Origin: a virus
Reading direction: 5' to 3' (one strand)
DNA: 64,000 nucleotides
Virus record (IMG/VR): IMGVR_UViG_3300034175_000017
Span: 17,357 to 81,356 of that record
Part shown: piece after piece, positions 14,556-55,085 of the stretch
How positions within the stretch are numbered: position 1 is the stretch's first letter
How the letters are laid out: every line of letters begins with the position of its first letter
Position numbers and translations under genes: made by a program
The notes under the pieces: model-generated
What the model was told of the DNA's origin: nothing
The model's database searches: none
Seen by the model: the letters and a program-made list of their open reading frames with translations, nothing else

Positions 14556-17500
14556 ATGGCGAAACCATATGAACAAGATGTCGTTTTAGACGCTGACGGC
14601 AAGCCGCTCTTTTCGGCTATGGATATTTTTCAACGTCGCGTTGATGCTATCCAGAAGACAATCACCAACATTCAGAAGGACAGCTACAAGACCGTAGCTG
14701 ACCTCAACAAGACCCTCGACGCCAACGTCAAGTCATTGCGCGATGCGATGAATGGTCTGCGTGCAGTCAGCACGCCCAAGGCTACCCGAGACCGAGACTA
14801 TACTGCTGCCCTCAAGGCCGAAGCCAATGCGGTCAAGGACACTGATCGTGTTGTTAAGGGTGCCCTTCGGGAGCAGGCCGAGCTTCGCAAGAAGGGCTAT
14901 GACGAAGCCCGCGCCTTTACGCTAAAGGAAGCCAAGGATCGTCAAGCGGCCAGCCGTGAGACTACTCAGCGTATTGCTGCTGACGAGCGTGAGGGTGCCC
15001 GCATCGTTGCAGAAAATAATCGTCGCCGGGTGCAGCAGGAGATTGAAACTCAGAAGCTCATCCGTGCTTCGCGTATCAGCGCAGCGCGTGACGAAGCTGT
15101 TGCAAACGCCAAGAGCATTCAGGATTCCAATGCTCTGACGCGTGCGCGTGTTGACAACATGAACAAGATGCAGATATTTCGTCAGGCGCAGAAGACCGAG
15201 ACGAACCCCGAGCAGCTTCGCGCACTGGCACAGCTTATTGCGATGGAGAAGGCGCGTGGCCAAGCTCTTGAGCAGAACATGCGGACCTTTGAAGCGGCTA
15301 ATCGTCGCATGTCCGGTCTCGACAACAAGACACAGAAGGCCCTTGCGCCTGCTGCCGCGCAGCGTGACGTGCAGATTTACGGTATATCCAACGCACGCAG
15401 CCGTGCTGTTGACGCGCAGACCCTAGCCACGCAGAACTTGCTGAACGCCGCTTCCGAGCGTGAGCGTGTTACTGCCCTGCAAAGTCTCGACCTTGCGCGT
15501 GCCAAGCTCGCTGCCATTGAGCGTATGGTCGCCAAGGAGAACCAACTGGCTGCTGCCGCCGAGCGCGTGAAGAAGGCCGACGAGCGGGCTGCTGCTGGCG
15601 ATGCAAACCTTAGCGGTCGCAGTCAGAAGATGCTGGCCAATCGCTATGCGACGGATGCCATTGCTTCGCTTGGTCCGCAGCAGGCTTTGAATGCTGCCTT
15701 GGGTCGTCAGCTTATTGCACAGAACGCTCTCAAGGGTGCCGTTGGTCAGCAGCAAGTCGCTGCTCAACGCCTGCTTGGTATTGAGGACGCTCGCGTTGCT
15801 GCTATTGAGCGTCAGATTGCCGCAGCCAGCCGTCGTGCGGCTCAAGATGCACGCGAAGCTGCGCGAGGTGCGCCCGGTCCTGAGAAAGAGAACCCGCTTA
15901 AGCGCATCCTGTCACCCGGCTACGCTGTCTCAGCTATCGCACGCACCGGAGTTTACGGAGCGGCTGCTGGTGCGGCTTACGGCGCGTTCAACGCGGCACA
16001 ATCCGGTCTGTCGAACACCATCGAAATCGAAGACGAGATGGTCAAGCTACAGGCCATTGCCAATGCGACCGATACGCAGATGCAAACGCTGCGTGGGTCG
16101 ATCTTCGCTATCGGTGAAACGTCGCGGTTCGCCACGACTGATCTTATCAAGATTTCACAGACCCTCGCACAGGCTGGTGTCGCCGCTGGTGACATGCAGA
16201 AGGTGCTGGCATCTGTCACCACGCTCGCTACCGCATCAGGTTCCACGCCTGAGGAAGCTGTGCAGCTTGTCACGTCGGCCCTTGGATCGTTCCAGTTGTC
16301 GGCCAGCGAGAGCAGCCGCGTTGCTGACCTGATGACTGAAGCTCTGAACCGCACCAAGTTGACGGTGCAGCAGGTTGGTCAGGCCATCCAGTATGTCGGT
16401 GCCACCGCATACGAGCAGAACATCAGCCTTGAGCAGTTGCTTGCCACTGTTGGTTCCGTCGCACAGGCTGGTATCAAGAGCGGTTCCACCATCGGCACCG
16501 GCTTCCGTCAGTTCCTTGTGGACTTGCAGGACCCAAGCAAGAAGCTCACCGAGCAGCTTACGCTTCTCAAGCTAACCTCGGCTGACATTGACGTGAGCGT
16601 GCGTGGCTTGCCTGCTGTGCTCGACACGCTGCGTAACGCTGGCTTCGGTGCCTCACAGGCTTACGCTGGTCTTGAGACCCGCGCTGCTGCGTTCTACCTG
16701 ACCGCGAAGAACAACGTGGACGTGGCTGACCAGTTGCAGTTGTCGTTCTCGTATTCGACGGCTGCGTTGGTAGCTAACGAGCGTGCGATGAACTCGGTCA
16801 CGGCTCAGTGGCAGCGGTTCAAGAACATCGTCGGCCAGCAGTTTACAGAAGATATGCAGGGCGTCGTCAGTCAGATGGAGAATACTCTCCGTTGGATCAG
16901 CGATAAGCTTGTGCAGTCCGAGAAGTTGTTAGACGAGCGTCAGGGTCGTCGTGACAAGGGTCAGGAGAAGTTCTATGAAATGGACATCACTGGCGGCTAC
17001 AGCAACACCGAAGGTTTGGCTGGTGGTCTCAATAGCCTGATCTCTCTCGTCTCTACGAACGATAGTGTTGCTCAGTGGTTCGTTGATATTCAGAAGAGCA
17101 GCGACGGAGCTAGTGCTGCTTCGGAGCGTCTCGGCACGCAGATCAACGAGACCAGCGGTAAGATTGATGAGCACAAGCAGCGGGTTACTGAACTCGACAA
17201 GGAGCTTATTCGTCTCATCACGCAGAAGGATACTCTGCGGAACAACGACACACGCTCTGCTGCGGAGACTGCTACTCTTACGTCGCGCTTCGTTGGTCTT
17301 GCCAATCAGTTGACCGTAACGGGCAATCGTTACGATGATCTTGTGCAGGCTGCTCGTCGGTATCGGCTTGAGCAGTTGCGCCTTATGGGTGTCGAGCTTC
17401 AGGTCCAGCAGCTACAGCTTGGCCAGCAGTCACGTGAGTCCCGCAGCAACTTGCGGACTAATCTTTATCAGATCAACAACAACGCCGAAGTCATGGCGGC

Positions 17501-20889: not shown

Positions 20890-23800
20890 GTGCGTGTGTC
20901 GATTCAGGTTTTCAAAGGTGCAAAGGGTGGACAGAGCAGCGGCTCCGGTAGCAGCTTCGTGCAGACTGCCGACAACCTGCGTTCCGAGGATACGTTTGAA
21001 GGACTGATGGGCGTCTGCATCGGCCCTATCAAGGGACCAACGAAGGGCCTCAAGTCTGTGAAGCTCGACGGCACTGCTGTCCAGAGCGAGAACGGTGAAA
21101 GCAACTTCCCCGGCTTCATCACTATTATGTCGGACGGCAACCCTGCCAACCACCCTGAGAAGCCTATTCTTCGTCTCGGTGCTGGTGCTGCTCCTACGCC
21201 TGTCAATCTTGCTCTGACTAACCCACCCAACGGCACGTCGCAGTGGGTAACGAAGACTGTCAACAACATTGCACCTGACTATATCGACCTGCGTTTCATT
21301 GCCAATCAACTGTTCACGCAGAACAAGCAGGGCGTCTATAACGGCACCGCCAGTATTGAAATTGAAATGAAGCCAACTGGCTCGGCAACATGGGTTAATC
21401 CTATGGCCTATGCTGCTGGTGTTCCTGCTGGAACGCAAATGCAGACTTCGATTGTTGGGTTGGTCGCTCAAGTTTATTTCAACGACTCCTATAATCAGAA
21501 TGCTCAGACCGGCTATGCTGCTCAGCGAGCCTTTCAGATCACCGGCAAGACGGGTAGCCCATCTGTGCATGAGCTTCGCATGTGGGTGCCTTCGACCGGC
21601 GCGTATGCGAACCGCACTTGGGACATTCGCTGCCGTCTCGTTGAGAAAGACAGCGTTGACGCTGATCCGATCTTTGAGAAGCGCAACATCAATTGGGAGT
21701 CGGCTGCTGCCGTCTATCAGGATGAGATTGGCGAAGAGGAAGATTGGCGCGGCGTCTCTTGGCTTCAGATTTACGGCAAGGCATCGAACCAACTTTCGGG
21801 CGTGCCTGACGTTGAGGTCGAGACCGACGCAAAGATCGTCTCTGTGCCGCCGACTTCGATCTTCAACCCTGAGACCCGCGTCTACAACGCTGGCATTTGG
21901 GATGGCTCTTGGGCGAAGGGCTGGACGAACGATCCGGCTTGGGTCATCAATGACATTATCTCTGACGAACTGAGCGGCATTTCCCTGCTCGCACCCGGCT
22001 CGTATCTAAACAAGTGGGATGCGCTGGAAGCGTCCAAGTGGTTCAGTGAGATGGTGCCTGACGGCAAGGGCGGCGTGCATCCTCGCTACAGCCTCAACGT
22101 CGTTGCCAACCAGCAGATGAAGGCCGAAGAGTTTGTTCGCTACATGGCGGGCGCTGTAGGCGGCTTTGCGTGGGACGAAGGTGACGGCCAGTGGAGGATG
22201 AAGGTCGATAAGCCTGACAATCCCGTTGACCTGTTCACGCTTGACAATATCGAAGGTGACTTTGTTTACAGTCACAGCGACGTGGATTCGCGCTTCAACG
22301 ATTACACCGGCACGTTTCTCAATGCCGAGATGGACTATCAGGAAGATACGGTTCATCTCTACGACAATAACAGCATTGCGCTGATTGGGCACAAACCATC
22401 CAGCATTGCACTGGTGGGCTGCACCAATCGTCAAGAAGCGATGCGTCGTCTGATGATCCGTCTGCGCTCGTCTGTGAATGAGACACGGCTTGTCAGCTTC
22501 ACTACGAACCGTCGTGGCCGCAACATCGAACAGCTTTCCACGATCCTCGTAGCGGACGGCCACCTTGGCGATCAGGCCAAGCGCACCACTGGTCGCACGA
22601 TCACTGTGGCTGCTGATCGCATGTCGATCATCGTGCGCGACCCTTTGCGTCTTGAGCTTAACATTCCCTACAAGCTCAAGTTCGCTTATATGAATCCGCT
22701 GTATAATCCTGCGAGCACGACGCAGCCAACGAACTCGGATTGGACGAAGCCGACGATTGTTGCAGAGCGCAATGTCACCAACAACTTCGCACAGCGCGGC
22801 TCGGTCACGACCATCTATCTTGACGCTGCATTGCCTGCTGGTCTGCCAGACAACCTCGCCATTGCGCTTGAGGCTGCAACGCTTGTTACCCTGCCGCTGC
22901 TGTATCGCGTGACGAACGTAGAATACAGCGACGATGGCGAGCGCGTGACGATCAGCGCACTGGAAGTGGACACTGGCAAGTGGGCTGCTTCTGATGGCGT
23001 GAGCAACGTCAACACTGTCTATCAGACTTTGCGGGGCAACGTGCCAACCCCGTTGCTACCGCCTGACAACACGCTGCTGCGCGTCATGGTGACGGAAGCT
23101 GTGCAGGGTCAGAACGTCAGCCTCACCGCCAACTGGCAGCGTCCTTCAGGCGCACAGGTCAGCGGCTTCCGCGTCACCTACTCGGTGAATGGTGGCGTTG
23201 AGCAAGTGCTCACTGAGAAGACCACGCTGACAAGTGCTGACTTAGTGAACCCACCTGATGGCACCTATATCTTCAATGTTTATACGATCAATCGTAGTGG
23301 TGCGCGTTCTGCGCCCCTAGTTGGCACGGCTGTTGTCGATGCCAATACGATTACTGCGGCTCAGGTCTTCTACTCGGGTGGCCAGCAGACGCTTGAAGAC
23401 TTGCGTCCTGCTACGCCGGGTGCCACACGTAACAATCCACGCGGCGCATGGGCCAGCAATACTGACTACTTTGTGGGCGACATCTTCAGCCACCAAGGTG
23501 TGAGCTACATGGTTACTGCGGACCACAGGTCTACTGGAACTGTGCCGACCTTTGAGAAGATCGTTCTCTTTGTGGATCGCGGTGCTCCGGGTCTGAATAC
23601 TGCGACGGTCTATCTGTATCAGCGCAAGGCTACTACGCCTGATCTACCAACAACTGCTGCGACCTACACGTTTTCGTCGGGTGTTCTTACCGGACACAAC
23701 AACGGTTGGGTGCGAACAATCCCCACCACCAATGGTCTGCCGTTGTGGGTTACTGTCGCGTCAGCAAGCAACGACACGAACTCTGACATCATCCAGCCAA

Positions 23801-26352
23801 ACGAGTGGGCTGGTGCCACGATTCTTGCACAGGATGGTCCTCCCGGCACTGGCAGCGAAGGCCCCGCTGGTCTCAACGTGGCGACGGTGTTCTTGTATAG
23901 GCGTTCGCCTGTTACAACTGTGCCGACGAAGCCGACAACGAATCTGACTTTTACGTTCGCTACGGGTCTGCTGTCTGGCGATCTTCAGGGCTGGCAGCAG
24001 ACTGTTCCAACCAACGACGGCAACCTGCTTTACGTCACCACTGTTACCGCCTCGTCAGCAGACCCCACAGACGTTATTCCGGGGGCCGAGTGGGCTGCGC
24101 CTACTGTCATGGCCCAAAACGGTGCTGGTGGCTCACAGGGCTTGAACAACGCCATTGTCTACATCTACCAGCGTGCGACCAATGCTCCTACCTTGCCAAC
24201 GTTAGGCGTGACCTACACGTTCTCGTCGGGTGTTGTGGCCAATCTCAACAACGGTTGGCAGGCTACCATTCCAAACGACAACGGCTTGCCGTTGTGGGTT
24301 GCTGTCGCCACGGCAAGCAACGTCAATACGACAGACACCATTGCTGCGACTGAGTGGACGGCTCCACAGATTTTGGTCGCCAGTGCCAGCGGTAGTCAGG
24401 GGCCATCGGGTATCAGCGTTGCGACTGTGTTCCTCTACAAGCGTGCCGCTTCGATCCCAACCAAGCCAACTTTGAACACGACCCTCACGTTCCAAACCGG
24501 CGTGCTGTCTGGCGATCTTCAGGGCTGGACGCAAGCTGTGCCCACAGTCAACGCGGCTAACGATCCCCTGTATGTGACCACGGCCACTGCTGCTGCTGCT
24601 GCTGCGACGGACACGATCGCTCCTACCGAGTGGGCCACTCCTACGGTCATGGCATCGAATGGTTTGAATGGCTCTGTCATCAAGCTGACGGCTGACCAGC
24701 AGGCGTTCCTTTTCTTGGACAACGTGGCTGTCAATCCTAACCAGCTAATCACGCTGACGGCTACGCCGCAGAATGCCAGCGAGACTATAACGTGGACGGT
24801 CTCGCCCAACGTGACGCTCAATGGAACGGGCAACACTCGCACGCTTTCGCTCGCCAACTTCGGCGGCAACCTGCAAGTGACGGTGACTGCCAAAGGAAAC
24901 CTCACCAACATCACAGATACGTTCACGATCATTCGCACCGACAGGTCTACGGCTGCTGCTGGTGCAGACGTTACCTCGCTCAACACCGCGCTTGGTGACG
25001 GCAATCGCGTGCGCTTCTCCTTAATGGAGGGCGGCACTAACGGTTGGGCACCTTTGCTCGCTGTCGCTAACAATGTTTATTTTGACAAGCAAGTAATAGA
25101 TGGTCGTGCTTTTATCGTAGGCACGACTCGCTTTGGTGCTGCTGGAACTGAAACAGCTAGTATCGGAACTAAGTTAGCGGTAGCACCAATTCCTGTTCGT
25201 CCTTTTGAACGTCTTAGTGTTTCAGCTTACATTGGCATTGATGCACAAGGTCAAAATCGTGCTTGGAACTTTGTGATTTGGTGGGTTGATGCCAACGGTA
25301 ACGGCATAACCAATACTTCAATTGCAAGTGGAACCGGAGGCACTCCTCTACTTTACAAGCCAGCAGCCTTTGTAAACGTGCCTGCCAATGCTTATTATGC
25401 TTGGCTTGAAGTCTATGCTGGTGCAGGCGGTGGCCCTGCTGGCGACATGATTACCTACATCGGTGAACCAATGGTGACGACTGCTGGTTCGTCTCAGACT
25501 GTGCATCCTAACTTCACGCCGGGTCCCGGCAACGAGATGGGTGCTGACGTTACCGCGAACTCGCAGGTGACTTCAGAATACACGGTTACAACTGTAACGC
25601 TCAATGCCAATAGCAGCGGTGTTCTTGACGCGGGTCAGTTTCCTGTCACGTTGGCTCTGCCTAAGGTGCTCAAAGGCGGTCAGTTAGTGACGACCAGCGG
25701 GGATACTACCTACGCTATTTCCGGCCAGACTCCCGCTTTATCCGGTATCTCTGTTGACAACGGCGCTGGCAGTCCATCGAAGGGCCAAGTCACTCTTCCT
25801 AACACTGTGACAGGCAGCGGCAGCTTCACGCTGAACATTTACTACAAGGGCACGCTTGTTTCGGCTCACCCTGTAGCTGTAGCTAAACAGAACGCGGTTT
25901 ATGTGCCGCCACCTGTTACTCCTCCTCCCACAGGTGGAACAGGATCAGGCGCTGCTGTCTATATGCCGACGAACGTAACGGCAGTAGCGGGAACACCGGC
26001 TGTCACTGCGGCTGCTCCTGTCTATGTGGGTTCGGGCAAGACGTTGGTGTGCAACTTGAGTGCTCAATATTCCTGCTTCGGTATCACTAGGTCCACGCGT
26101 CTTGTGGCGAAGTTCCAGTATTCTCCTGCGGGAGCCAATAGCTGGACGGACATTGGGCCATATGCCACCGGAAGTGTTACCTCTACGGATCAAGAAGGAA
26201 ACCTAAATGACTATGGTGAGCTAACTATGGTTCAATCGGTCGCGCCTGCTGCGGGAAACTATGACGTTCGCCTCAATTTCTACAAAGCCTTGACCGCGAA
26301 TGCGCTTCGCCTAGAACCAAACTCCGATGGTTATGCGAATGGTAATGGCTAA
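20890..26352 (+). CDS. Tip attachment protein J-like (host specificity)
   Basis: 1820 residues. The N-terminal ~700 residues resemble the lambda J hub (an early GPIKGPTKGLKSVKLDGT block, WRGVSWLQIYGKAS, and WDGSWAKGWTNDPAWVI), followed by a fibronectin type III-like domain (about residues 735-820), four tandem ~90-residue repeats (903-1260), Ig-like and AT-rich receptor-type modules, and a Pro-rich linker near 1680. Start GTG 20890; GTG 20896 in the same frame is possible. It probably carries the receptor-binding determinants. Confidence 0.85.
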   Translation: MRVSIQVFKGAKGGQSSGSGSSFVQTADNLRSEDTFEGLMGVCIGPIKGPTKGLKSVKLDGTAVQSENGESNFPGFITIMSDGNPANHPEKPILRLGAGAAPTPVNLALTNPPNGTSQWVTKTVNNIAPDYIDLRFIANQLFTQNKQGVYNGTASIEIEMKPTGSATWVNPMAYAAGVPAGTQMQTSIVGLVAQVYFNDSYNQNAQTGYAAQRAFQITGKTGSPSVHELRMWVPSTGAYANRTWDIRCRLVEKDSVDADPIFEKRNINWESAAAVYQDEIGEEEDWRGVSWLQIYGKASNQLSGVPDVEVETDAKIVSVPPTSIFNPETRVYNAGIWDGSWAKGWTNDPAWVINDIISDELSGISLLAPGSYLNKWDALEASKWFSEMVPDGKGGVHPRYSLNVVANQQMKAEEFVRYMAGAVGGFAWDEGDGQWRMKVDKPDNPVDLFTLDNIEGDFVYSHSDVDSRFNDYTGTFLNAEMDYQEDTVHLYDNNSIALIGHKPSSIALVGCTNRQEAMRRLMIRLRSSVNETRLVSFTTNRRGRNIEQLSTILVADGHLGDQAKRTTGRTITVAADRMSIIVRDPLRLELNIPYKLKFAYMNPLYNPASTTQPTNSDWTKPTIVAERNVTNNFAQRGSVTTIYLDAALPAGLPDNLAIALEAATLVTLPLLYRVTNVEYSDDGERVTISALEVDTGKWAASDGVSNVNTVYQTLRGNVPTPLLPPDNTLLRVMVTEAVQGQNVSLTANWQRPSGAQVSGFRVTYSVNGGVEQVLTEKTTLTSADLVNPPDGTYIFNVYTINRSGARSAPLVGTAVVDANTITAAQVFYSGGQQTLEDLRPATPGATRNNPRGAWASNTDYFVGDIFSHQGVSYMVTADHRSTGTVPTFEKIVLFVDRGAPGLNTATVYLYQRKATTPDLPTTAATYTFSSGVLTGHNNGWVRTIPTTNGLPLWVTVASASNDTNSDIIQPNEWAGATILAQDGPPGTGSEGPAGLNVATVFLYRRSPVTTVPTKPTTNLTFTFATGLLSGDLQGWQQTVPTNDGNLLYVTTVTASSADPTDVIPGAEWAAPTVMAQNGAGGSQGLNNAIVYIYQRATNAPTLPTLGVTYTFSSGVVANLNNGWQATIPNDNGLPLWVAVATASNVNTTDTIAATEWTAPQILVASASGSQGPSGISVATVFLYKRAASIPTKPTLNTTLTFQTGVLSGDLQGWTQAVPTVNAANDPLYVTTATAAAAAATDTIAPTEWATPTVMASNGLNGSVIKLTADQQAFLFLDNVAVNPNQLITLTATPQNASETITWTVSPNVTLNGTGNTRTLSLANFGGNLQVTVTAKGNLTNITDTFTIIRTDRSTAAAGADVTSLNTALGDGNRVRFSLMEGGTNGWAPLLAVANNVYFDKQVIDGRAFIVGTTRFGAAGTETASIGTKLAVAPIPVRPFERLSVSAYIGIDAQGQNRAWNFVIWWVDANGNGITNTSIASGTGGTPLLYKPAAFVNVPANAYYAWLEVYAGAGGGPAGDMITYIGEPMVTTAGSSQTVHPNFTPGPGNEMGADVTANSQVTSEYTVTTVTLNANSSGVLDAGQFPVTLALPKVLKGGQLVTTSGDTTYAISGQTPALSGISVDNGAGSPSKGQVTLPNTVTGSGSFTLNIYYKGTLVSAHPVAVAKQNAVYVPPPVTPPPTGGTGSGAAVYMPTNVTAVAGTPAVTAAAPVYVGSGKTLVCNLSAQYSCFGITRSTRLVAKFQYSPAGANSWTDIGPYATGSVTSTDQEGNLNDYGELTMVQSVAPAAGNYDVRLNFYKALTANALRLEPNSDGYANGNG
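23596..24666 (+). repeat. Four tandem ~270-bp coding repeats in the J-like gene
   Basis: Units begin near 23596, 23875, 24145 and 24415, each starting with an ATV(Y/F)LYxR-type strand and ending E-W-A-x-x-x-(V/I)-(M/L)-A. Units 1 and 3 share a YTFSSGV...NNGW core, units 2 and 4 share a SGDLQGW core, so the array reads A-B-A-B, as from duplication of a two-unit block. Confidence 0.8.
25045..25410 (+). other. Lower-GC segment inside the J-like gene
   Basis: Counted by 60-base lines, 25081-25260 has about 40-47% G+C, against a clearly higher value in the flanking gene. Codon choice also shifts (more codons ending in A or T). It encodes a beta-rich module, probably a swapped-in receptor-binding or carbohydrate-binding domain. 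Confidence 0.55.
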
Positions 26353-41239: not shown

Positions 41240-41389
41240 TTACCCGCCGACCATCAGATTGCACTGACAAGGGCCTTCTTCGCACACCTTGCACGACACT
41301 GGCTTGCTCAAACAGGTGCCGATGGTGCTGGCCTTGAAGCCACGCGTGCCGGTGCCTCGACAGTGAGGACAGTTCTTATCGCCTTTCAC
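41240..41389 (-). CDS. Small zinc-finger protein
   Basis: 49 residues, GTG 41389 behind AGAAAGGATTCTCC. CPHCRGTGTRG is a DnaJ-type CxxCxGxG motif and CKVC...CQC a second Cys pair, so one zinc is likely bound. The 3' end of the alarmone hydrolase gene overlaps the start by 14 bases. Confidence 0.6.
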   Translation of the reverse strand: MKGDKNCPHCRGTGTRGFKASTIGTCLSKPVSCKVCEEGPCQCNLMVGG

Positions 41390-41900
41390 GGAGAATCCTT
41401 TCTTCTGTAAGCAGTTGGTTCCAAACGTGACCACGCAAGGGTGCGTAACCATCACCCATCACAGCCAGTTGCAGCCGCTTCTCTGGCAGATACACAGCAG
41501 CGAACTTGGGATCATCCGTCGCTAGGTTCGTGATGTTATCCAGAATATCAGCATACTTGATGTTCTGTGCCTGCGGCGTGATGATGGCCAGCTTATCTCG
41601 CTGATACTTGGCACGCTGTGTGCGGTTCAAAGCAGGCTGCTTGGCATTGGTGACTTGCAACACCAGCGTAGATACCTGTGGTCCGAACCGACGCTGAATA
41701 TCGAAGATGTCGTAGGGCGTATCTTCAACCACGTCATGCAGCGCACCGGCTACGAGCGTCGTCAGGTCCACACCACGAACCATCGTGGCAAGTGTATGCA
41801 CCACAGCGCGTGGATGCACGCTGTAGGGCTTGCCAGACAGCTTTCGTATCTGTCCAGCGTGTGCCTGCTCCATGAATTGAATTGCATCGCGTAGGATCAT
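41376..41900 (-). CDS. Small alarmone hydrolase (SpoT/MESH1-like HD protein)
   Basis: 174 residues covering a single RSH hydrolase domain. HAGQIRKLSGKPYSVHP carries the first metal His, ALHDVVEDT the HDxxED motif (55-60), and KYADILDNI the KxADxxDN signature. No synthetase domain follows. In cells such enzymes hydrolyse (p)ppGpp or NADPH; in a phage it could quench the stringent response. Overlaps the HD gene upstream by 4 bases. Confidence 0.8.
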   Translation of the reverse strand: MILRDAIQFMEQAHAGQIRKLSGKPYSVHPRAVVHTLATMVRGVDLTTLVAGALHDVVEDTPYDIFDIQRRFGPQVSTLVLQVTNAKQPALNRTQRAKYQRDKLAIITPQAQNIKYADILDNITNLATDDPKFAAVYLPEKRLQLAVMGDGYAPLRGHVWNQLLTEERILRERR

Positions 41901-42475
41901 AGTTGTCCTCCTAGTTCGGTGGGGAAGAGGTCCGAGAAACGAGCACGGAACTCATGATAGGCGCGACCGGGGTCCCAACTGCCAAGATCGACGTAAGCGA
42001 TATATTGATCGAACTCGACGCCGTTCAGAATGGCATGCTCTTCGGGGTTCTGGCCGCGAAGATACTTCATTTCGAGGCCGAGCATCACCCGGTCAACAAA
42101 ATGCACCTGCTCCGACAGCGGGTAGACGAACTTGAAGCGGTCGGCCATCGCGGTCTCGATCTTCACTTCCAAGGTCTTGAAGAGAGGAACTGCAACCTTG
42201 AGCGGCGTCACAATGTCGTTCGTGAATGCCTCTGCGGTGTCGTGCATCAGCGCCGAGTAGCTCTGAGTAGGATCAATCGCATCCATGATGAGCGAGGCAT
42301 TCACGGCGTGCTGTGCAACCGAATAGAAGTGTGGTAGCTGCCCTGCAAAGCGGCAGATGTTCGCTAGTGGGCGAGCAATGTCGTCCAGACCGACGATAGC
42401 TAGTTCAGGCTGCTCGTATGAGAAGCGTTGGCCGCTCAAGAGCGTGATGCCGTCAGTAAGTTGAAGCTGTTCCAT
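41897..42475 (-). CDS. HD-domain deoxynucleotidase, YfbR/DatZ-like
   Basis: 192 residues from ATG 42475 (GGAG upstream). SVAQHAVNAS carries the first His, LMHDTAEAFTNDIVTPLK matches the YfbR block LLHDASE...GDLPTPVK with its HD pair, and VDRVMLGLE carries the last Asp. YfbR dephosphorylates dNMPs; DatZ of S-2L removes triphosphate from dATP. Which activity applies cannot be told by eye. Confidence 0.75.
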   Translation of the reverse strand: MEQLQLTDGITLLSGQRFSYEQPELAIVGLDDIARPLANICRFAGQLPHFYSVAQHAVNASLIMDAIDPTQSYSALMHDTAEAFTNDIVTPLKVAVPLFKTLEVKIETAMADRFKFVYPLSEQVHFVDRVMLGLEMKYLRGQNPEEHAILNGVEFDQYIAYVDLGSWDPGRAYHEFRARFSDLFPTELGGQL

Positions 42476-42497
42476 AGGTTGTCTCCGTTTTGAGGGC

Positions 42498-42526
42498 AAA
42501 AAGATAGGGGCCACTCGGCCCCTATC
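42498..42526 (-). terminator. Rho-independent terminator, leftward
   Basis: GATAGGGGCC / GGCCCCTATC with a 4-base loop, then TTTTT on the minus strand. Lies after the outer-membrane protein gene. Confidence 0.92.
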
Positions 42527-42547: not shown

Positions 42548-43045
42548 TTAGAACCTAAGTCCGAGGCCGACGAGTGCTTCATGACGGCCAGCGTTGCGCT
42601 GGAAGTCACTGTATCGGTATTCAATCTTGGAATACAAGCCCCGACCGCTTGCAATTTCAGCACCGCCGCCGACGCGCAGCCCTTCAAGGGTGCGGAAGTC
42701 ATTGGGTGAGCGAACGTCACGCAGTGGGCGCAGCGAGGCATAACCTGCCGTGCCGTAGAGCAACAAGTTGTCCGAAGCAGCGACACCCAAGCGCACAGCG
42801 GCACCCAAGTCCTTGCGGTCGAACACGTTGTTGGCATTGACCTCGGCACCTACCGTCAGGCGATCACCGAGAGGCAAATCAACGCCAGCATTGGCACCGT
42901 AGTTGATCGTGCTGTCGCGGAAGCGGTTCAGATCATCCAGACCAGCCGTCACGTCGATGCGAGGGCCGGTGAAGTTGCTGTTTGGTGCGGCAACGGCAGG
43001 AGTGGCAGCAAAGAGGGCTGCAAGAACGAGAAAAAATGACTTCAT
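42548..43045 (-). CDS. Outer-membrane beta-barrel protein with signal peptide
   Basis: 165 residues. MKSFFLVLAALFAATPAVAA is a signal peptide with an AVA-A cleavage site; the mature part has eight-strand-type alternation (TVGAEVNANNVF, AAVRLGVAAS, GLYSKIEYRYSDF) and ends in GLGLRF, with the terminal Phe needed by the BAM machinery. It resembles small OmpA/opacity-type barrels. A phage-coded barrel could alter receptors or block superinfection. It has its own terminator, suggesting strong expression. Confidence 0.8.
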   Translation of the reverse strand: MKSFFLVLAALFAATPAVAAPNSNFTGPRIDVTAGLDDLNRFRDSTINYGANAGVDLPLGDRLTVGAEVNANNVFDRKDLGAAVRLGVAASDNLLLYGTAGYASLRPLRDVRSPNDFRTLEGLRVGGGAEIASGRGLYSKIEYRYSDFQRNAGRHEALVGLGLRF

Positions 43046-43391: not shown

Positions 43392-43623
43392 GGCGGCGCT
43401 TCGCAGCCTGCTTCTTGTCAACGACATTGAGGATGCCAGCGACACCGAAGAAGGCTCCTGCAATGCCCAAGAGAATGACGACAGGACCGTAGAGCGGCAG
43501 CAACACTAGCCACCACGACCAATCAATCTTGCCGAGTAGCTTGAGGGTGACAAAGACGATGGTCAGCAGGCCAAGAAAGCCGATGCCGCCGCTCGATGCT
43601 GATGAGGTGGTAGGTGTGGTCAT
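43384..43623 (-). CDS. Small membrane protein, TMEM-FragileX-F-like
   Basis: 79 residues. Residues 12-65 show FLGLLTIVFVTLKLLGKIDW followed by SWWLVLLPLYGPVV, the pattern of short phage and bacterial proteins grouped in the Fragile-X-F-associated membrane family (two helices with a central D-W-S-W-W). Start ATG 43623 overlaps the RNA ligase stop (TAATG). Function unknown. Confidence 0.65.
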   Translation of the reverse strand: MTTPTTSSASSGGIGFLGLLTIVFVTLKLLGKIDWSWWLVLLPLYGPVVILLGIAGAFFGVAGILNVVDKKQAAKRRRG

Positions 43624-44255
43624 TATTTTGTTTCCTTTCGTGATTGATTTTCGGCCCACTTGCCCTGCTCGTCGTAGTCGAAGGTGCGCTTGAACAGCGT
43701 CTTCGACGGACCATGATACATGACGATGCCCTCAGGGTTCATGAAGCCGGGGACCAGCTTGGACCCGGCGAGGCTAAGGTCGATCAGAGCGTTGTCGAAC
43801 ACGCCAGCGTGTGACAGGTAGCCCTCGAACAGGACAGGCACCACGTCCACGCGGTCAGGCAGTTCAACGCCACGCCAGCGAGGATTGAAGAGGGCAAAAC
43901 GCTTCTCGGTCAGACCGTAGTTGCGCTGGATGCCTGCACCATACCACTCACCGAAGTGACGACCGGCACCGAGTGTCTCGACAAAGCCTCGCGCATTGTC
44001 AGCAACGAAACGAGCGAAGCCAGCATGATCGCCGGTCTTGCTGGTATCGAGCAGACGATTGCGGCTTCCGGCGAACACCGAATAGACCACATTTTCGTGC
44101 ATAAGCACTGCTACAGCAGGCCCATACTTGATGTTAGGGGACATCGTGTCTTCAGGGACGATGTTGATCTGTGCGTTGCTGCCGTCGATCTTCTCGCTGA
44201 TCGTCCAATCGTGGCTGAAGCGGGTTAGCTTGGGGAATGGTTCAAAGGCGCTCAT
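43623..44255 (-). CDS. RNA ligase, Rnl2-like
   Basis: 210 residues. Nucleotidyltransferase motifs are in order: motif I EKIDGSNAQI with the adenylated Lys, motif III FGEWYGAGIQRNYG, motif IV EGIVMYH and motif V LFKRTF. Related phage ligases repair tRNA cut by host anticodon nucleases. It is shorter than T4 Rnl2 (334), with no C-terminal domain. ATGA coupled with the gene upstream. Confidence 0.85.
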   Translation of the reverse strand: MSAFEPFPKLTRFSHDWTISEKIDGSNAQINIVPEDTMSPNIKYGPAVAVLMHENVVYSVFAGSRNRLLDTSKTGDHAGFARFVADNARGFVETLGAGRHFGEWYGAGIQRNYGLTEKRFALFNPRWRGVELPDRVDVVPVLFEGYLSHAGVFDNALIDLSLAGSKLVPGFMNPEGIVMYHGPSKTLFKRTFDYDEQGKWAENQSRKETK

Positions 44256-44436: not shown

Positions 44437-44472
44437 ACAAAGAGGCCCACCTACATGGGGTAGGTGGGCCTC
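44437..44472 (-). terminator. Strong rho-independent terminator, leftward
   Basis: A perfect 13-bp stem GAGGCCCACCTAC / GTAGGTGGGCCTC with a 5-base loop, followed on the minus strand by TTTGTTT. Isolates the glycanase gene from the RNA ligase unit. Confidence 0.93.
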
Positions 44473-44496: not shown

Positions 44497-44505
44497 TACT
44501 AAGTA
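44497..44505. promoter_or_regulatory. TACTNAGTA palindrome at glycanase gene end
   Basis: TACTAAGTA exactly, overlapping the TAG stop of the glycanase gene and preceding the terminator and the next leftward gene. Its coding position makes coincidence possible, but it agrees with the three other exact copies. Confidence 0.35.
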
Positions 44506-46352
44506 AGAGCTGCCTTGGCGGCAGTGATCTTGTCGGTCAATCCCTTGACCTGAGCATCGCGGGTTGCAACCAGCGCCTCAAGCTCCTTGATGCGAGCATC
44601 GCGGGGATCAGTCGTTGGCGGCGGCGGTGTCACAGGTGGTGGTGGAGCCGTGTCAGCGGCCAACGTGACCGAGTTCCAAGAGTCCACCCATCCGCTGTCA
44701 CCCTCGGCATCGAAGGCAGTAACGCGGCCCTTGATGGGCTTGCCAAGATGCTCCGCTGGGATGGTCAGCCGTGGTGTATCGCCCGATGCCAACGTGACGC
44801 CGTTGCTGCGTGCCTCATAAAAGCGACGAACAATCGGCTGGCCGTTCCAATCGGCACCTTCGATGGTCACGTCCTTCGTGCCAGCGACGACGCTGATGTA
44901 GGTCTGCGCCTTAGCAGTAGGAACGGTGTTGGTCGTTGGAGCAACAGGCGGCGGGGCTGGTGGGAGCGGTTCGCCTGCCATATCGGTGATCCAGTTGGAA
45001 ATGGTTGTGGTCGAAGTGACCAGCCCGCCCGTCAGGTTCCCAATGATGATGTCAGACTGCTCTTGATTGCCCGCAACCCACGACGACTGATCGTTGGTCT
45101 CGGCTACGTTGTCCAGCTTGATCGGACGCTCCACCGTGAAGGTGAAGTTACCAGCCTGCGTGATACGCACGGTGCCAGAGTTTTCGTTGGCCGGAACATA
45201 TACGATGCCGGTCTTGGCAGCGAACATATCCGCAACAGACTTGGTGAAGTCCGCAGCGTTCACCGTGTTCTGATAGGTGATGGTGAACGACTGATCGACC
45301 TTGCCGTTGGCGACCTCAAACGTCAGCCCTTGGTTCTGTCCCTCGTTCAGCGTGTCGCTTCCGACGCGGCGAACAGTAAGACGGGACTCGACAGGGGTAG
45401 GCGCAATCACAACAGGCGTTCCGGGGACAGCCGTGAAGTAATTCTTGAGCAGACCGAAGGCAGACGAGTCGGCTGTTCCGGGCTTGGACAGATACAACTC
45501 GTAGTCGGCAGGCCACCAAGCACCAACGGACCATGCAGTGCCGCCGATGGTGTTCGCCACCATGTAATCGAGCATGTTCTTCTCGGCGTCCAGCCAACGT
45601 GCGTCGTTGCTAGGCACACCGAACTCACCGATCATGCCACGGAAGTTGTTGGCCTTGATCCAATCGACAAACTTCTTGAGCTTGTCCACGCCGACCATCG
45701 GGTAAGCGCCCTCGCCGTCATAGCTATACTTGTAGCTGCCGGAGCTATCCCGGTCGAGATACTGGTGAGCCTGATAGACGAGGTTGTTGGCTGGATCGTT
45801 GACGATGAACGTCGGGTCCCAAGAGTGAGCACCGGACCAGTTGTCACCCTCGATATAGATCGTGTGGGTGGTGTCCACTTCGCGGATCGCATTAATCGCA
45901 GCCTGTGCTGCAACCTTCCAAGCCGTTGCCGAGGGCATGTTGTTCGGCTCGTTCATCACGTCGTAGCCCTCAAGGGCCGGATGATTTTTCACTGCTGACG
46001 CCATCTTTCGCCAGAAGTCAGCGAGGTTGGCAGCGGTGGGTCCACCCGTCGAGCCGATAGCGTTGCCGCCGTGGCGTGCGTAGCTGTGGTTGTCGATGAA
46101 CAGGGTCATACCGAGTGTCTGTGCGTCGTTCAGCACGCGGGTCATGAGCGCAAGCTCTGCGGTATTGAGTGGACCGTTCAGAACGTTCTGCATGCGGTCC
46201 CAAATGAACGGCAGGCGGAACCACAGGATGCCCTTGTTCTTGTAGTAGAGCAACTCGTCGTAGGTGGGGTAATGGTATTGCTGATCGTGGATGCCAGCGG
46301 TGCCGCCGAACTCGGCACCGGAAATGTTGGCGGAAATAAGCTGATGAGCCAT
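44499..46352 (-). CDS. GH5-like endoglycanase with C-terminal accessory domains
   Basis: 617 residues from ATG 46352 (GGAG upstream). Residues 1-300 form a GH5 barrel: an N-terminal SGAEFG, GYDVMNEPNNMP with the acid/base Glu 135, HQYLDRDSSG, and IGEFGVPSND with the nucleophile Glu 243. No signal peptide. After 330 come two beta modules, a Pro-rich linker and a short C-terminal coiled coil (about 585-617). GH5 enzymes cut cellulose and related beta-glucans or mannans; here host exopolysaccharide is the likely target, either in the virion or after lysis. Confidence 0.85.
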   Translation of the reverse strand: MAHQLISANISGAEFGGTAGIHDQQYHYPTYDELLYYKNKGILWFRLPFIWDRMQNVLNGPLNTAELALMTRVLNDAQTLGMTLFIDNHSYARHGGNAIGSTGGPTAANLADFWRKMASAVKNHPALEGYDVMNEPNNMPSATAWKVAAQAAINAIREVDTTHTIYIEGDNWSGAHSWDPTFIVNDPANNLVYQAHQYLDRDSSGSYKYSYDGEGAYPMVGVDKLKKFVDWIKANNFRGMIGEFGVPSNDARWLDAEKNMLDYMVANTIGGTAWSVGAWWPADYELYLSKPGTADSSAFGLLKNYFTAVPGTPVVIAPTPVESRLTVRRVGSDTLNEGQNQGLTFEVANGKVDQSFTITYQNTVNAADFTKSVADMFAAKTGIVYVPANENSGTVRITQAGNFTFTVERPIKLDNVAETNDQSSWVAGNQEQSDIIIGNLTGGLVTSTTTISNWITDMAGEPLPPAPPPVAPTTNTVPTAKAQTYISVVAGTKDVTIEGADWNGQPIVRRFYEARSNGVTLASGDTPRLTIPAEHLGKPIKGRVTAFDAEGDSGWVDSWNSVTLAADTAPPPPVTPPPPTTDPRDARIKELEALVATRDAQVKGLTDKITAAKAALT

Positions 46353-46372: not shown

Positions 46373-46408
46373 GACGTGTAGGATATAGGGCATCACACCC
46401 TACACGTC
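46373..46408 (-). terminator. Hairpin after ribonucleotide reductase gene
   Basis: GACGTGTAGG (46373-46382) pairs with CCTACACGTC (46399-46408) around a 16-base loop that could fold further. There is no T-run, so it may be a weak terminator or mRNA-stabilising stem between the reductase and the glycanase gene. Confidence 0.5.
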
Positions 46409-46420
46409 CAGAAACACAGG

Positions 46421-48106
46421 TTATATTCCGCAGGTTCCGCCGCCGGTCAGGTCACAAACGTCGTGCGTCTGCTCAACATATTCCTGACCGTCATGCTTCA
46501 CTGCTTCCGAGTATGGAACAGGAGTGAGAGGCTGACCGCCACGACTACCATCAGGGTAGCAAGTGAAGCCGCGCAGACGGTGAGCGTAGCGAGCCAAGGT
46601 AGATGCGAACTCATCGACTTTATCCTCGTTGTTCAACTCGCTGCCCCAAGCAGGCAGATTGATGGTGGAACTGATCGCCATGTCAACGTAGTCCTGCACG
46701 TCAGCTTGGAACGCGATGCGGCGCTCGTAGTCTGCGGCGAGGTCAATGGCCGACTCGATCTTCTCCGGGTCAGCACCGTAGAACTGGATCAACTGCTTGG
46801 CAGTTCCGTCCACGACATACTGGTAGTGCCACTCGGTTCCGTTCTTGAGATAACGGCGCATGTAGGAGACAGCAAAGAGGGGTTCGATGCCTGACGTGGT
46901 GCCTGCCACGATAGCCAAAGTGCCTGTAGGAGCAATAGCCCGATTAGCAACAGGCCGAGAGATGCCCAAGCGGTCCGCAAACTCACGCGAAACCGTGTCC
47001 GAGATGTCACGGTATTCTGCGAGCCATTGGTGTAGTTCAGGGACGACTTCATAGCGGTGGCCTCTCTGGATCAACCATTCATGGACGCCCATGAGACCGA
47101 GACCAAGCCGACGATTCTTTTCGCGGACCTGATACACCTTCTCGTAGGGCAGCTTTGCTTTCAGGGTGCCGCACATCAGGAACATGGTGCCGAGCCGAAT
47201 GACTTCGCACAGTTCCTGAATGTTGTCGATGCGGGACAGGTTCAGCGAGCCGAGGTTGCACACGTCGCTGTCGTCTTCCGACGTAACTTCCGTGCAGGCA
47301 TTCCGTAGCGTCTCTTTAGCCTTCGCACCGAAGTTGAAAGCGAAGCCGGGTTCAGCCGTCTTCAACGCCTGCCGCATGTTGGTGCGGAACGTGTGACCAA
47401 CGTCACCAGTGGACTGAAAGTTCTTCAGCCACTCGTCGCCGTAGTTCAGGCTGATGTTGGTCATGTCCAGCGGGGCATGCCAGTTGAAGTCCTTGTTCTT
47501 CAGGTCAGCGACCGTCAGGTCCGTGCCCGGAACAGGCATCGTTGACCAATCCTTGGCGACGAGAAACTTCTCGGCGTCAGGATGTTCAGCGGACAGCGAG
47601 GCGTAGAGAGCGGAGCGACGTGAGCCACCCTGCATTACGTTGCGGCCAATCTCGTTGAGCATCATCATCTTGGGGATAGGACCCGAAGCCAGACCACCAG
47701 TGTCACCAAGAGGCGAGCCTTCGCCACGATACACAGAGTAGTCGGCACCGATGCCACCGCCTGTCATGAGAGCGGACTCGGCCTTCCAAGAAAGGTTGGC
47801 CCAATCTTCGCGGGTATCTTCCTCGGCCTTGAGGAGATAGCAATTGTTGAAGAACTTTTTCGGACGACCTGCATAATACAGGTAGCGGCCACCGGGGATG
47901 AACTTCATGTCAGCAATATACTGTGCCAACTGCGTCATATCTCCGAGGCTCATGTAGGGAGTGCAAACATCAGCGACCAGCGTGTCTGCAAGCTGGTCCC
48001 ACGTCTCCGCGCCTTCGTGCTTATACTTGTAGTTGAAAATATTCTCGCTGAACTCAGAGCGAAACGTTGGAACTGCCGCAGGCGCGGAGGATGTGATTGC
48101 TAACAT
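46421..48106 (-). CDS. nrdJ: Class II (B12-dependent) ribonucleotide reductase
   Basis: 561 residues, shorter than most. FNNCYLL gives the first redox Cys, RNACTEV is the NxCxE catalytic site, CNLGSLNLSR the second redox Cys region, APTGTLAIVAGTTSGIEP a conserved glycine-rich block, and the tail ends CDLTGGGTCGI with a Cys pair for re-reduction. There is no small subunit or NrdG-type activase nearby, consistent with an adenosylcobalamin enzyme that works with or without oxygen. AGGAG precedes ATG 48106. Confidence 0.88.
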   Translation of the reverse strand: MLAITSSAPAAVPTFRSEFSENIFNYKYKHEGAETWDQLADTLVADVCTPYMSLGDMTQLAQYIADMKFIPGGRYLYYAGRPKKFFNNCYLLKAEEDTREDWANLSWKAESALMTGGGIGADYSVYRGEGSPLGDTGGLASGPIPKMMMLNEIGRNVMQGGSRRSALYASLSAEHPDAEKFLVAKDWSTMPVPGTDLTVADLKNKDFNWHAPLDMTNISLNYGDEWLKNFQSTGDVGHTFRTNMRQALKTAEPGFAFNFGAKAKETLRNACTEVTSEDDSDVCNLGSLNLSRIDNIQELCEVIRLGTMFLMCGTLKAKLPYEKVYQVREKNRRLGLGLMGVHEWLIQRGHRYEVVPELHQWLAEYRDISDTVSREFADRLGISRPVANRAIAPTGTLAIVAGTTSGIEPLFAVSYMRRYLKNGTEWHYQYVVDGTAKQLIQFYGADPEKIESAIDLAADYERRIAFQADVQDYVDMAISSTINLPAWGSELNNEDKVDEFASTLARYAHRLRGFTCYPDGSRGGQPLTPVPYSEAVKHDGQEYVEQTHDVCDLTGGGTCGI

Positions 48107-54243: not shown

Positions 54244-54513
54244 TTATATCCAATCAGGATTTATGGTGATGTTCAAAGGCGGGATTTTTGTGACCCACCC
54301 TGCATCAAGTGTCTGCACTTGACGACGCGGCTGCGGTGCCCCTGTCTTAGTCAGGAGAGGCACGATTTTAAGGAGAGGGTTGGTTCCTTTTCGTTCCGTC
54401 ACCTCTATCACGATGCCTTTCCAAGCAGCGTGATAGTGTGACACAACAAACTGGCCCTTTTCCCATTTGGGCTTCACGTTACCCTCGCTGGTTTTGATTT
54501 GGATGGAACTCAC
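54244..54513 (-). CDS. Small SH3/KOW-like hypothetical protein
   Basis: 89 residues. KWEKGQFVVSHYHAAWKGIV followed by EVTERKGTNPLLKIVPLL is the strand pattern of a small KOW-like barrel. Overlaps the lipoprotein gene upstream by 35 bases in another frame. Function unknown. Confidence 0.5.
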   Translation of the reverse strand: MSSIQIKTSEGNVKPKWEKGQFVVSHYHAAWKGIVIEVTERKGTNPLLKIVPLLTKTGAPQPRRQVQTLDAGWVTKIPPLNITINPDWI

Positions 54514-54838
54514 CGAACAGGCAGTGTGTCATTTCGTGCCCGATTGCTTCGGGCTTATAGCTTACTGCGGGGTCGATGGTGTGGATGTAGCAGGTAGTGC
54601 GGTTGATCGTGCTGAACCCGAAGAGTTCTTCTCCGGGGGACAGGACACGACCGCCCTTACGAAGTTTGTAGCTATCCTGCAACGCCGCGTTGGTTGGGTA
54701 AAGTATCACCTTTACGTCACGTTCTGGCAGCAGCAGTTCGTTCCCTTTCTCAAAGGTGTAACCGTCTGCGGCTCCAGTGCCAACGTCACACGACGCAAGC
54801 AATAGGCAACTCGCTGCTAGGGCTAGGATTTTCTTCAT
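54479..54838 (-). CDS. Lipoprotein with HExxH zinc-protease motif
   Basis: 119 residues from ATG 54838. A signal peptide ends in lipobox LLASC, so the mature protein is lipidated. Near the C-terminus EAIGHEMTHCLFGEFHPN contains HEMTH with a third His ten residues on, the layout of a minimal zincin. The chain is very short for a protease, but the active-site helix is complete. Expected at the inner or outer membrane of the infected cell. Substrate unknown. Confidence 0.65.
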   Translation of the reverse strand: MKKILALAASCLLLASCDVGTGAADGYTFEKGNELLLPERDVKVILYPTNAALQDSYKLRKGGRVLSPGEELFGFSTINRTTCYIHTIDPAVSYKPEAIGHEMTHCLFGEFHPNQNQRG

Positions 54839-55085
54839 GGTCAGGCTCCGTGGGGACGAGGGTGAGTAGGTGAGTGTCAACTTCTAACCACAATCGAGCG
54901 CCGCAGGATAGTGGCTTGTGAGGCCGGTAGACGAACCTACCGACCTCACGCCCTTCGACCATCAACGCTACTTCATGGGCACGCTCGGCACCCTTGTAGT
55001 CACGGACGATAATCGCAGGGTCATTCGTTCCTTCTTTGGTGTTACGGCGGATGGCGTCTTGTGCGACGTGCAGGATTTGCTTCAT
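54786..55085 (-). CDS. Small hypothetical protein
   Basis: 99 residues, beginning MKQILHVAQDAIRRN, with VGRFVYRPHKPLSCGARLWL as the core. Overlaps the lipoprotein gene by 53 bases in a different frame. Unknown. Confidence 0.5.
   Translation of the reverse strand: MKQILHVAQDAIRRNTKEGTNDPAIIVRDYKGAERAHEVALMVEGREVGRFVYRPHKPLSCGARLWLEVDTHLLTLVPTEPDHEENPSPSSELPIACVV

Follow-up and report, generated by a model that had tools for sequence, protein, structure and literature searches.

The window analysed here, a stretch of 64,000 nucleotides that runs from position 17357 to position 81356 in a virus record of 81,356 bases, carries a GH5 glycanase gene on its minus strand, with the following features in and around it:

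44499-46352, minus strand: GH5 glycanase gene, 617 aa, with its ATG at 46352 and its stop codon at 44499-44501
45414-46352, minus strand: GH5 catalytic TIM-barrel domain, approximately aa 1-313, GH5_5-like (evidence from Pfam, PDB hits, AlphaFold and Foldseek)
45948-45950, minus strand: codon of the catalytic acid/base E135, aligned with RBcel1 E135
45624-45626, minus strand: codon of the catalytic nucleophile E243, aligned with RBcel1 E245
44967-45398, minus strand: C-terminal region d1, aa 319-462, with no detectable relatives and no confident predicted fold
44637-44918, minus strand: C-terminal region d2, aa 479-572, predicted with low confidence to be beta-rich, with no significant relatives
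44505-44606, minus strand: C-terminal helix, aa 583-616, predicted to form a coiled coil and preceded by a proline-rich linker (pLDDT near 90 in each of two models)
44442-44472, minus strand: intrinsic terminator with a 13-bp perfect stem and a T-rich tail (z -5.3)
46373-46408, minus strand: strong hairpin between the stop codon of the ribonucleotide reductase gene and the GH5 ribosome-binding site (z -3.4)
46421-48106, minus strand: ribonucleotide reductase (RNR) gene, upstream of the GH5 gene
43623-44255: RNA ligase-like gene, downstream of the GH5 gene

An earlier note on this DNA had described a leftward GH5 gene closed by a 13-bp terminator and lying among replication and metabolism genes rather than tail genes, a description that the present analysis confirms. 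The reading frame is real; its mechanical start is a TTG 3 nt before the ATG, and a GGAGA ribosome-binding site lies upstream of that ATG. On the minus strand the terminator stem is followed by TTTGTTTG, and no shuffled sequence folds equally well; with this terminator 26 nt beyond the stop codon, the gene ends its own transcription unit. The second hairpin, unique in the window, occupies the 68-nt gap that precedes the gene. Its perfect stem of 10 bp becomes longer when wobble pairs are allowed, but it has no U-tract and is therefore unlike an intrinsic terminator; it may stabilise the mRNA or be a processing site. A sigma-70-type promoter was looked for near the gene and not found. Codon usage was considered as a means of dating the transfer or of calling the gene late-expressed and was set aside, the GC3 of the catalytic part (0.74, against 0.60-0.73 elsewhere) differing too weakly for either use.

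The neighbours of the gene encode the RNR and the RNA ligase-like protein, and the DNA polymerase, helicase and RIIA genes share its strand, whereas the head and tail genes lie on the plus strand. The product does not look like a tail spike or tail fibre: its gene and the structural cluster occupy opposite strands, and no virion-anchor domain was found in it. Homologues of Caulobacter phage Seuss proteins include the terminase, portal, capsid, tape measure, J, polymerase, helicase and RIIA, with identities of 41-45% for TerL, portal and MCP and lower values for the others; IMG/VR contigs are closer relatives of the virus (66-75% in the capsid). These homologues mark it as a Seussvirus-like siphophage of 81 kb.

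The catalytic domain is matched by Pfam Cellulase (PF00150, GH5 of clan GH-A) over aa 30-277 (E 1.7e-40; 139.7 bits, with a cut-off of 23.5). Sequence hits in the PDB span aa 4-321, and the nearest solved structures are those of Pseudomonas stutzeri Cel5A (PsCel5A; E 5.7e-64) and RBcel1 (E 1.5e-57). An AlphaFold model built with 21 relatives has pLDDT values of 72-80 in the first 20 residues and 91-99 over approximately aa 21-300, and Foldseek matches it to RBcel1 (4ee9) at E 1.8e-32 with a TM (target) of 0.91. RBcel1 is a GH5_5 endo-1,4-beta-glucanase with catalytic residues E135 and E245 (PMC8900817). Both catalytic glutamates named in the earlier note, 135 and 243, are indeed present and align with these two residues; together with the conserved Arg, His, Asn, His, Tyr and Trp, also mapped on RBcel1, they make up an active site (R46, H89, N134, E135, H196, Y198, E243 and W274) that is invariant in 22 sequences. 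In GH5 enzymes the two glutamates follow strands 4 and 7. RBcel1, a GH5_5 enzyme, and PsCel5A are the best matches in both sequence and fold, and it is by way of these nearest characterised enzymes that the domain is assigned to GH5_5. The phage enzyme shares its fold and active site with these two (4ee9 and 4lx4; 36-38% domain identity) and differs from them by some 300 additional C-terminal residues, the solved RBcel1 and PsCel5A chains being single-domain. That the protein would be a catalytically intact glycanase, encoded outside the tail cluster, is well supported.

Among the matches listed from a scan of 84,980 bacterial and archaeal species genomes, the best came from three Sphingomonas assemblies (59, 54 and 52%), and all others stood at 47% or below. 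In a tree of 64 GH5 domains, made by a quick method, the phage copy falls within a clade of Sphingomonas domains (SH-aLRT 95 with four rows, 99 with nine) and apart from all 16 other viral GH5 domains. This type of GH5 is uncommon in sphingomonads, with a match at E 1e-80 or better in 3 of 200 Sphingomonadaceae genomes. A portal protein search found no prophage in 200 Sphingomonadaceae genomes, which is uninformative for a lytic phage, and the sphingomonad ancestry of one gene is no proof of a sphingomonad host.

The closest catalytic domains, at 52-60% identity, belong to Sphingomonas GH5-(Calx-beta)-RTX proteins (L032, L033, L034, L190 and L191). Like the phage protein, these start directly at the catalytic domain with no signal peptide (MIGINISGAEFGG... 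against MAHQLISANISGAEFGG... in the phage) and carry a proline-rich or repeat linker behind it. Unlike the phage protein, which has neither RTX repeats nor a supported Calx-beta domain, they carry calcium-binding RTX repeats at the end (PF00353, E 1.6e-27 and 9.6e-28), and in two of them Calx-beta repeats lie in between. GGxGxD motifs number 1-12 in most of the RTX-type Sphingomonas relatives, compared with 0 in the phage protein, which cannot be counted as an RTX enzyme. C-terminal RTX repeats are the usual layout of type I-secreted proteins. The gene of one relative is located near exosortase EpsH and DUF3485 genes, with putative chain-length-determinant-like and sugar-transferase-like ORFs recognised by eye further along; the EpsH/DUF3485 neighbourhood is a setting of exopolysaccharide production.

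These relatives change how the export of the phage protein should be read. The earlier note was right that there is no signal peptide, since no hydrophobic stretch is present at the N-terminus; however, the Sphingomonas relatives lack one too, so that its absence is inherited rather than a phage adaptation and is by itself uninformative. The informative change, as far as sequence comparison can tell, is the loss of the RTX region and the presence of a different C-terminus in its place. With the RTX region gone, type I export would be closed, and the remaining exits are lysis or the virion.

Only the terminal helix of the new C-terminus is predicted with confidence, and folding from the single sequence is poor apart from it. 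The C-terminal 300 or so residues gave no detectable relatives in phages or IMG/VR and no match to this phage's own proteins or to those of its relatives; against 299 Sphingomonadaceae genomes they gave matches only at E 9e-4 or worse per genome, as the number of genomes searched explains. Region d1 resembles Calx-beta by eye and is located where the Sphingomonas relatives carry Calx-beta, but it ranked 58th among 2000 shuffles plus d1/d2 against a profile of the relatives' repeats, and hhalign gave the pairing a probability of 4%; the identification was rejected as unproven. A CsgH hit in the protein (E 7e-4, below the cut-off, 30 residues) was taken as chance.

Among relatives of the virus the gene appears to be accessory. 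No GH5 match was found in any of the relatives' 22 records, of which four approach full length (77-83 kb), or in 153 viral contigs carrying relatives of the two genes that flank GH5. Three of the four near-full-length relatives have a different RNR-like gene and few or no genes from there to a conserved HD-domain gene (a homologue of 41897-42514), the interval that in this phage holds the GH5, RNA ligase and outer-membrane barrel genes. Absence from relatives, combined with a variable slot, argues for local acquisition, and the gene may be regarded as moron-like, an accessory element in a siphophage of lytic type.

Other phages carry GH5 enzymes as well. Gp095 of Erwinia phage S6 degrades carboxymethylcellulose, and infection by S6 depends on cellulose, its first receptor; gp095 is a beta-1,4-glucan cutter tied to host cellulose (PMC9544554). 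It has in common with the present gene that a phage-borne GH5 lies in a variable genome region. S6 differs in being a Schitoviridae podophage, and the GH5 domain of gp095 is C-terminal, behind choice-of-anchor D domains, and belongs to a different GH5 branch, the structure hits to its relatives in phiEaP8 and SNUABM_01 being far weaker. The structural search returned related GH5 proteins of phages phiEaP8, SNUABM_01, SopranoGao, POR1 and Skulduggery. By tblastn, GH5 proteins were found in Pseudomonas phage ZRG1 (WID42089.1) and Xanthomonas phage LucasX (LUCX_247) at only 25-34% identity; the coiled coil of the ZRG1 protein is at its N-terminus, where that of the present protein is C-terminal, and LUCX_247, unlike the present gene, stands directly behind tail genes. 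The best "phage" hit by tblastn, MT835628.1 (L026, labelled "Bacteriophage sp." and UNVERIFIED), was rejected: the record is no phage but a polysaccharide-utilisation locus from Bacteroidetes, in which SusC/SusD-like genes accompany several glycoside hydrolases, two GH5 genes among them. Phage GH5 enzymes are already known, and what is new here is the separate origin and the unusual C-terminal exchange.

Two further viral proteins were noted in passing. One (L121, 6194-10930, plus strand) is a viral protein of 1578 aa that combines two divergent GH5 domains with three Ig/Calx-beta-like repeats related to one another, and is encoded behind tail-spike-like genes. The other (L125, 8966-10690, plus strand) is a GH5 protein of a 231-kb phage with an N-terminal coiled coil and a proline linker; its gene adjoins DHFR-like and ribonucleotide reductase-like genes, which recalls the setting of the present gene.

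The leading reading, to which we would give about an even chance, is that the protein is a depolymerase of a host beta-glucan-type exopolysaccharide, released free at lysis. The gene product would be an active endo-beta-1,4-glucanase of the GH5 subfamily 5 type, whose ancestry lies in the sphingomonad GH5-RTX enzymes exported by type I secretion. It may accumulate in the cytoplasm, held as an oligomer by its coiled coil, until it is freed at lysis; it could then cleave linkages of the beta-1,4-glucan type in the host's exopolysaccharide or cellulose matrix, which might help progeny to spread and adsorb. Release at lysis is plausible for a gene that lies outside the plus-strand structural and endolysin genes and whose product has no known virion anchor; against it, the DNA and nucleotide-metabolism block in which the gene lies is probably expressed early or in mid-infection, which would be odd for a lysis-time enzyme. 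The reading in the earlier note, which had offered release at lysis or a place in the virion, is partly supported: the intact glycanase outside the tail cluster stands, and the missing signal peptide is not in itself an adaptation to phage life.

A virion-attached depolymerase, in which the new C-terminal 300 residues dock on tail or head so that exopolysaccharide is cleared during adsorption, is less probable but a real rival, because the GH5_5-like domains of other phages are often found in tail proteins. Such domains have a tail-type N-terminus (L116), are fused to a tail protein (L123), lie beside a collagen-like fibre gene (L113) or follow tail-spike-like genes (L121); GH5 proteins with a coil and linker also occur in ZRG1 and L125, and the C-terminal helix of the present protein is confidently predicted. 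Yet the GH5 gene is opposite in strand to all structural genes, its C-terminus is unlike any protein of the phage, its relatives or the phage collection, and LucasX and the tail-type relatives have their GH5 genes near tail genes where this phage does not. A related proposal, somewhat more doubtful still, is that the phage turned a type I-secreted RTX enzyme acting on host exopolysaccharide into a phage effector by C-terminal exchange, a virion-docking or oligomerising module replacing the secretion module. If so, delivery would have moved from secretion by living cells to release with the virus.

Carbon acquisition, in which the enzyme would break down cellulose or hemicellulose from the environment (from plants) to supply the infected host, instead of acting on the host's exopolysaccharide, is improbable. 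Soil viruses do encode glycoside hydrolases, and a permafrost/soil viral GH5 is a proven endomannanase (Emerson 2018, PMC6786970), an enzyme that is likewise virus-encoded, has demonstrated activity, is mannan-specific and was interpreted as serving carbon degradation; endoglucanases are also found among GH5_5 enzymes, for example the Xanthomonas citri Cel5A proteins of the PDB. However, a protein with no export signal cannot feed a living host before lysis, Pfam found no cellulose-binding module in it, and its closest relatives include one encoded near exopolysaccharide-type genes. Least probable is a binding-only or degenerate protein that keeps the fold to bind polysaccharide without catalysis. 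In its favour, the phage branch in the tree, at 0.48, exceeds in length those of the neighbouring bacterial copies (0.24-0.41); against it, none of the eight canonical active-site residues has been lost, the model can be superposed on RBcel1 and the frame is open.

The locus records how a tailed phage captured a GH5_5 enzyme of sphingomonads in a separate event that can be traced, together with the exact change that accompanied it, the RTX export region being gone and a new coiled-coil C-terminus present. Should the enzyme of the leading reading prove active on the host matrix, it would be a candidate for use against the biofilms of bacteria that make sphingan or cellulose, and would give a hint to the phage's host.

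Several other genes in the window deserve mention. The RNR (46421-48106, minus strand) is of a widespread viral type, 69-74% identical to many IMG/VR contigs; a tblastn-style search did not find it in close relatives, three of which have a different gene of about 790 aa, or an otherwise unlike one, near its place. A gene at 42548-43045 (minus strand) encodes an outer-membrane beta-barrel protein with a signal peptide (OMP_b-brl, E 7e-15). None of the four near-complete relatives has it, and barrels 35-47% identical to it occur in Sphingomonadaceae genomes; it is a candidate for receptor masking or superinfection exclusion. At 41376-41900 (minus strand) lies the gene of a small HD-domain protein whose start resembles a RelA/SpoT hydrolase (HAGQIRKLSGKPYSVHP...AGALHDVVED), perhaps a phage alarmone hydrolase, with relatives at 45-48% in three other genomes (G005, G012 and G013). 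A small putative lipoprotein at 54479-54880 (minus strand) has a lipobox-like LASSC and, near its end, an HExxH-like motif (GHEMTHCLF), and may be a secreted metallopeptidase; a 37% relative is found in G014. Finally, the J-like tail tip protein of 1820 aa (20890-26352, plus strand) has a CBM5/12 match at aa 853-882 which, at 25.1 bits, falls just under the Pfam cut-off of 26.2 and would make it a second polysaccharide-facing feature of this phage.
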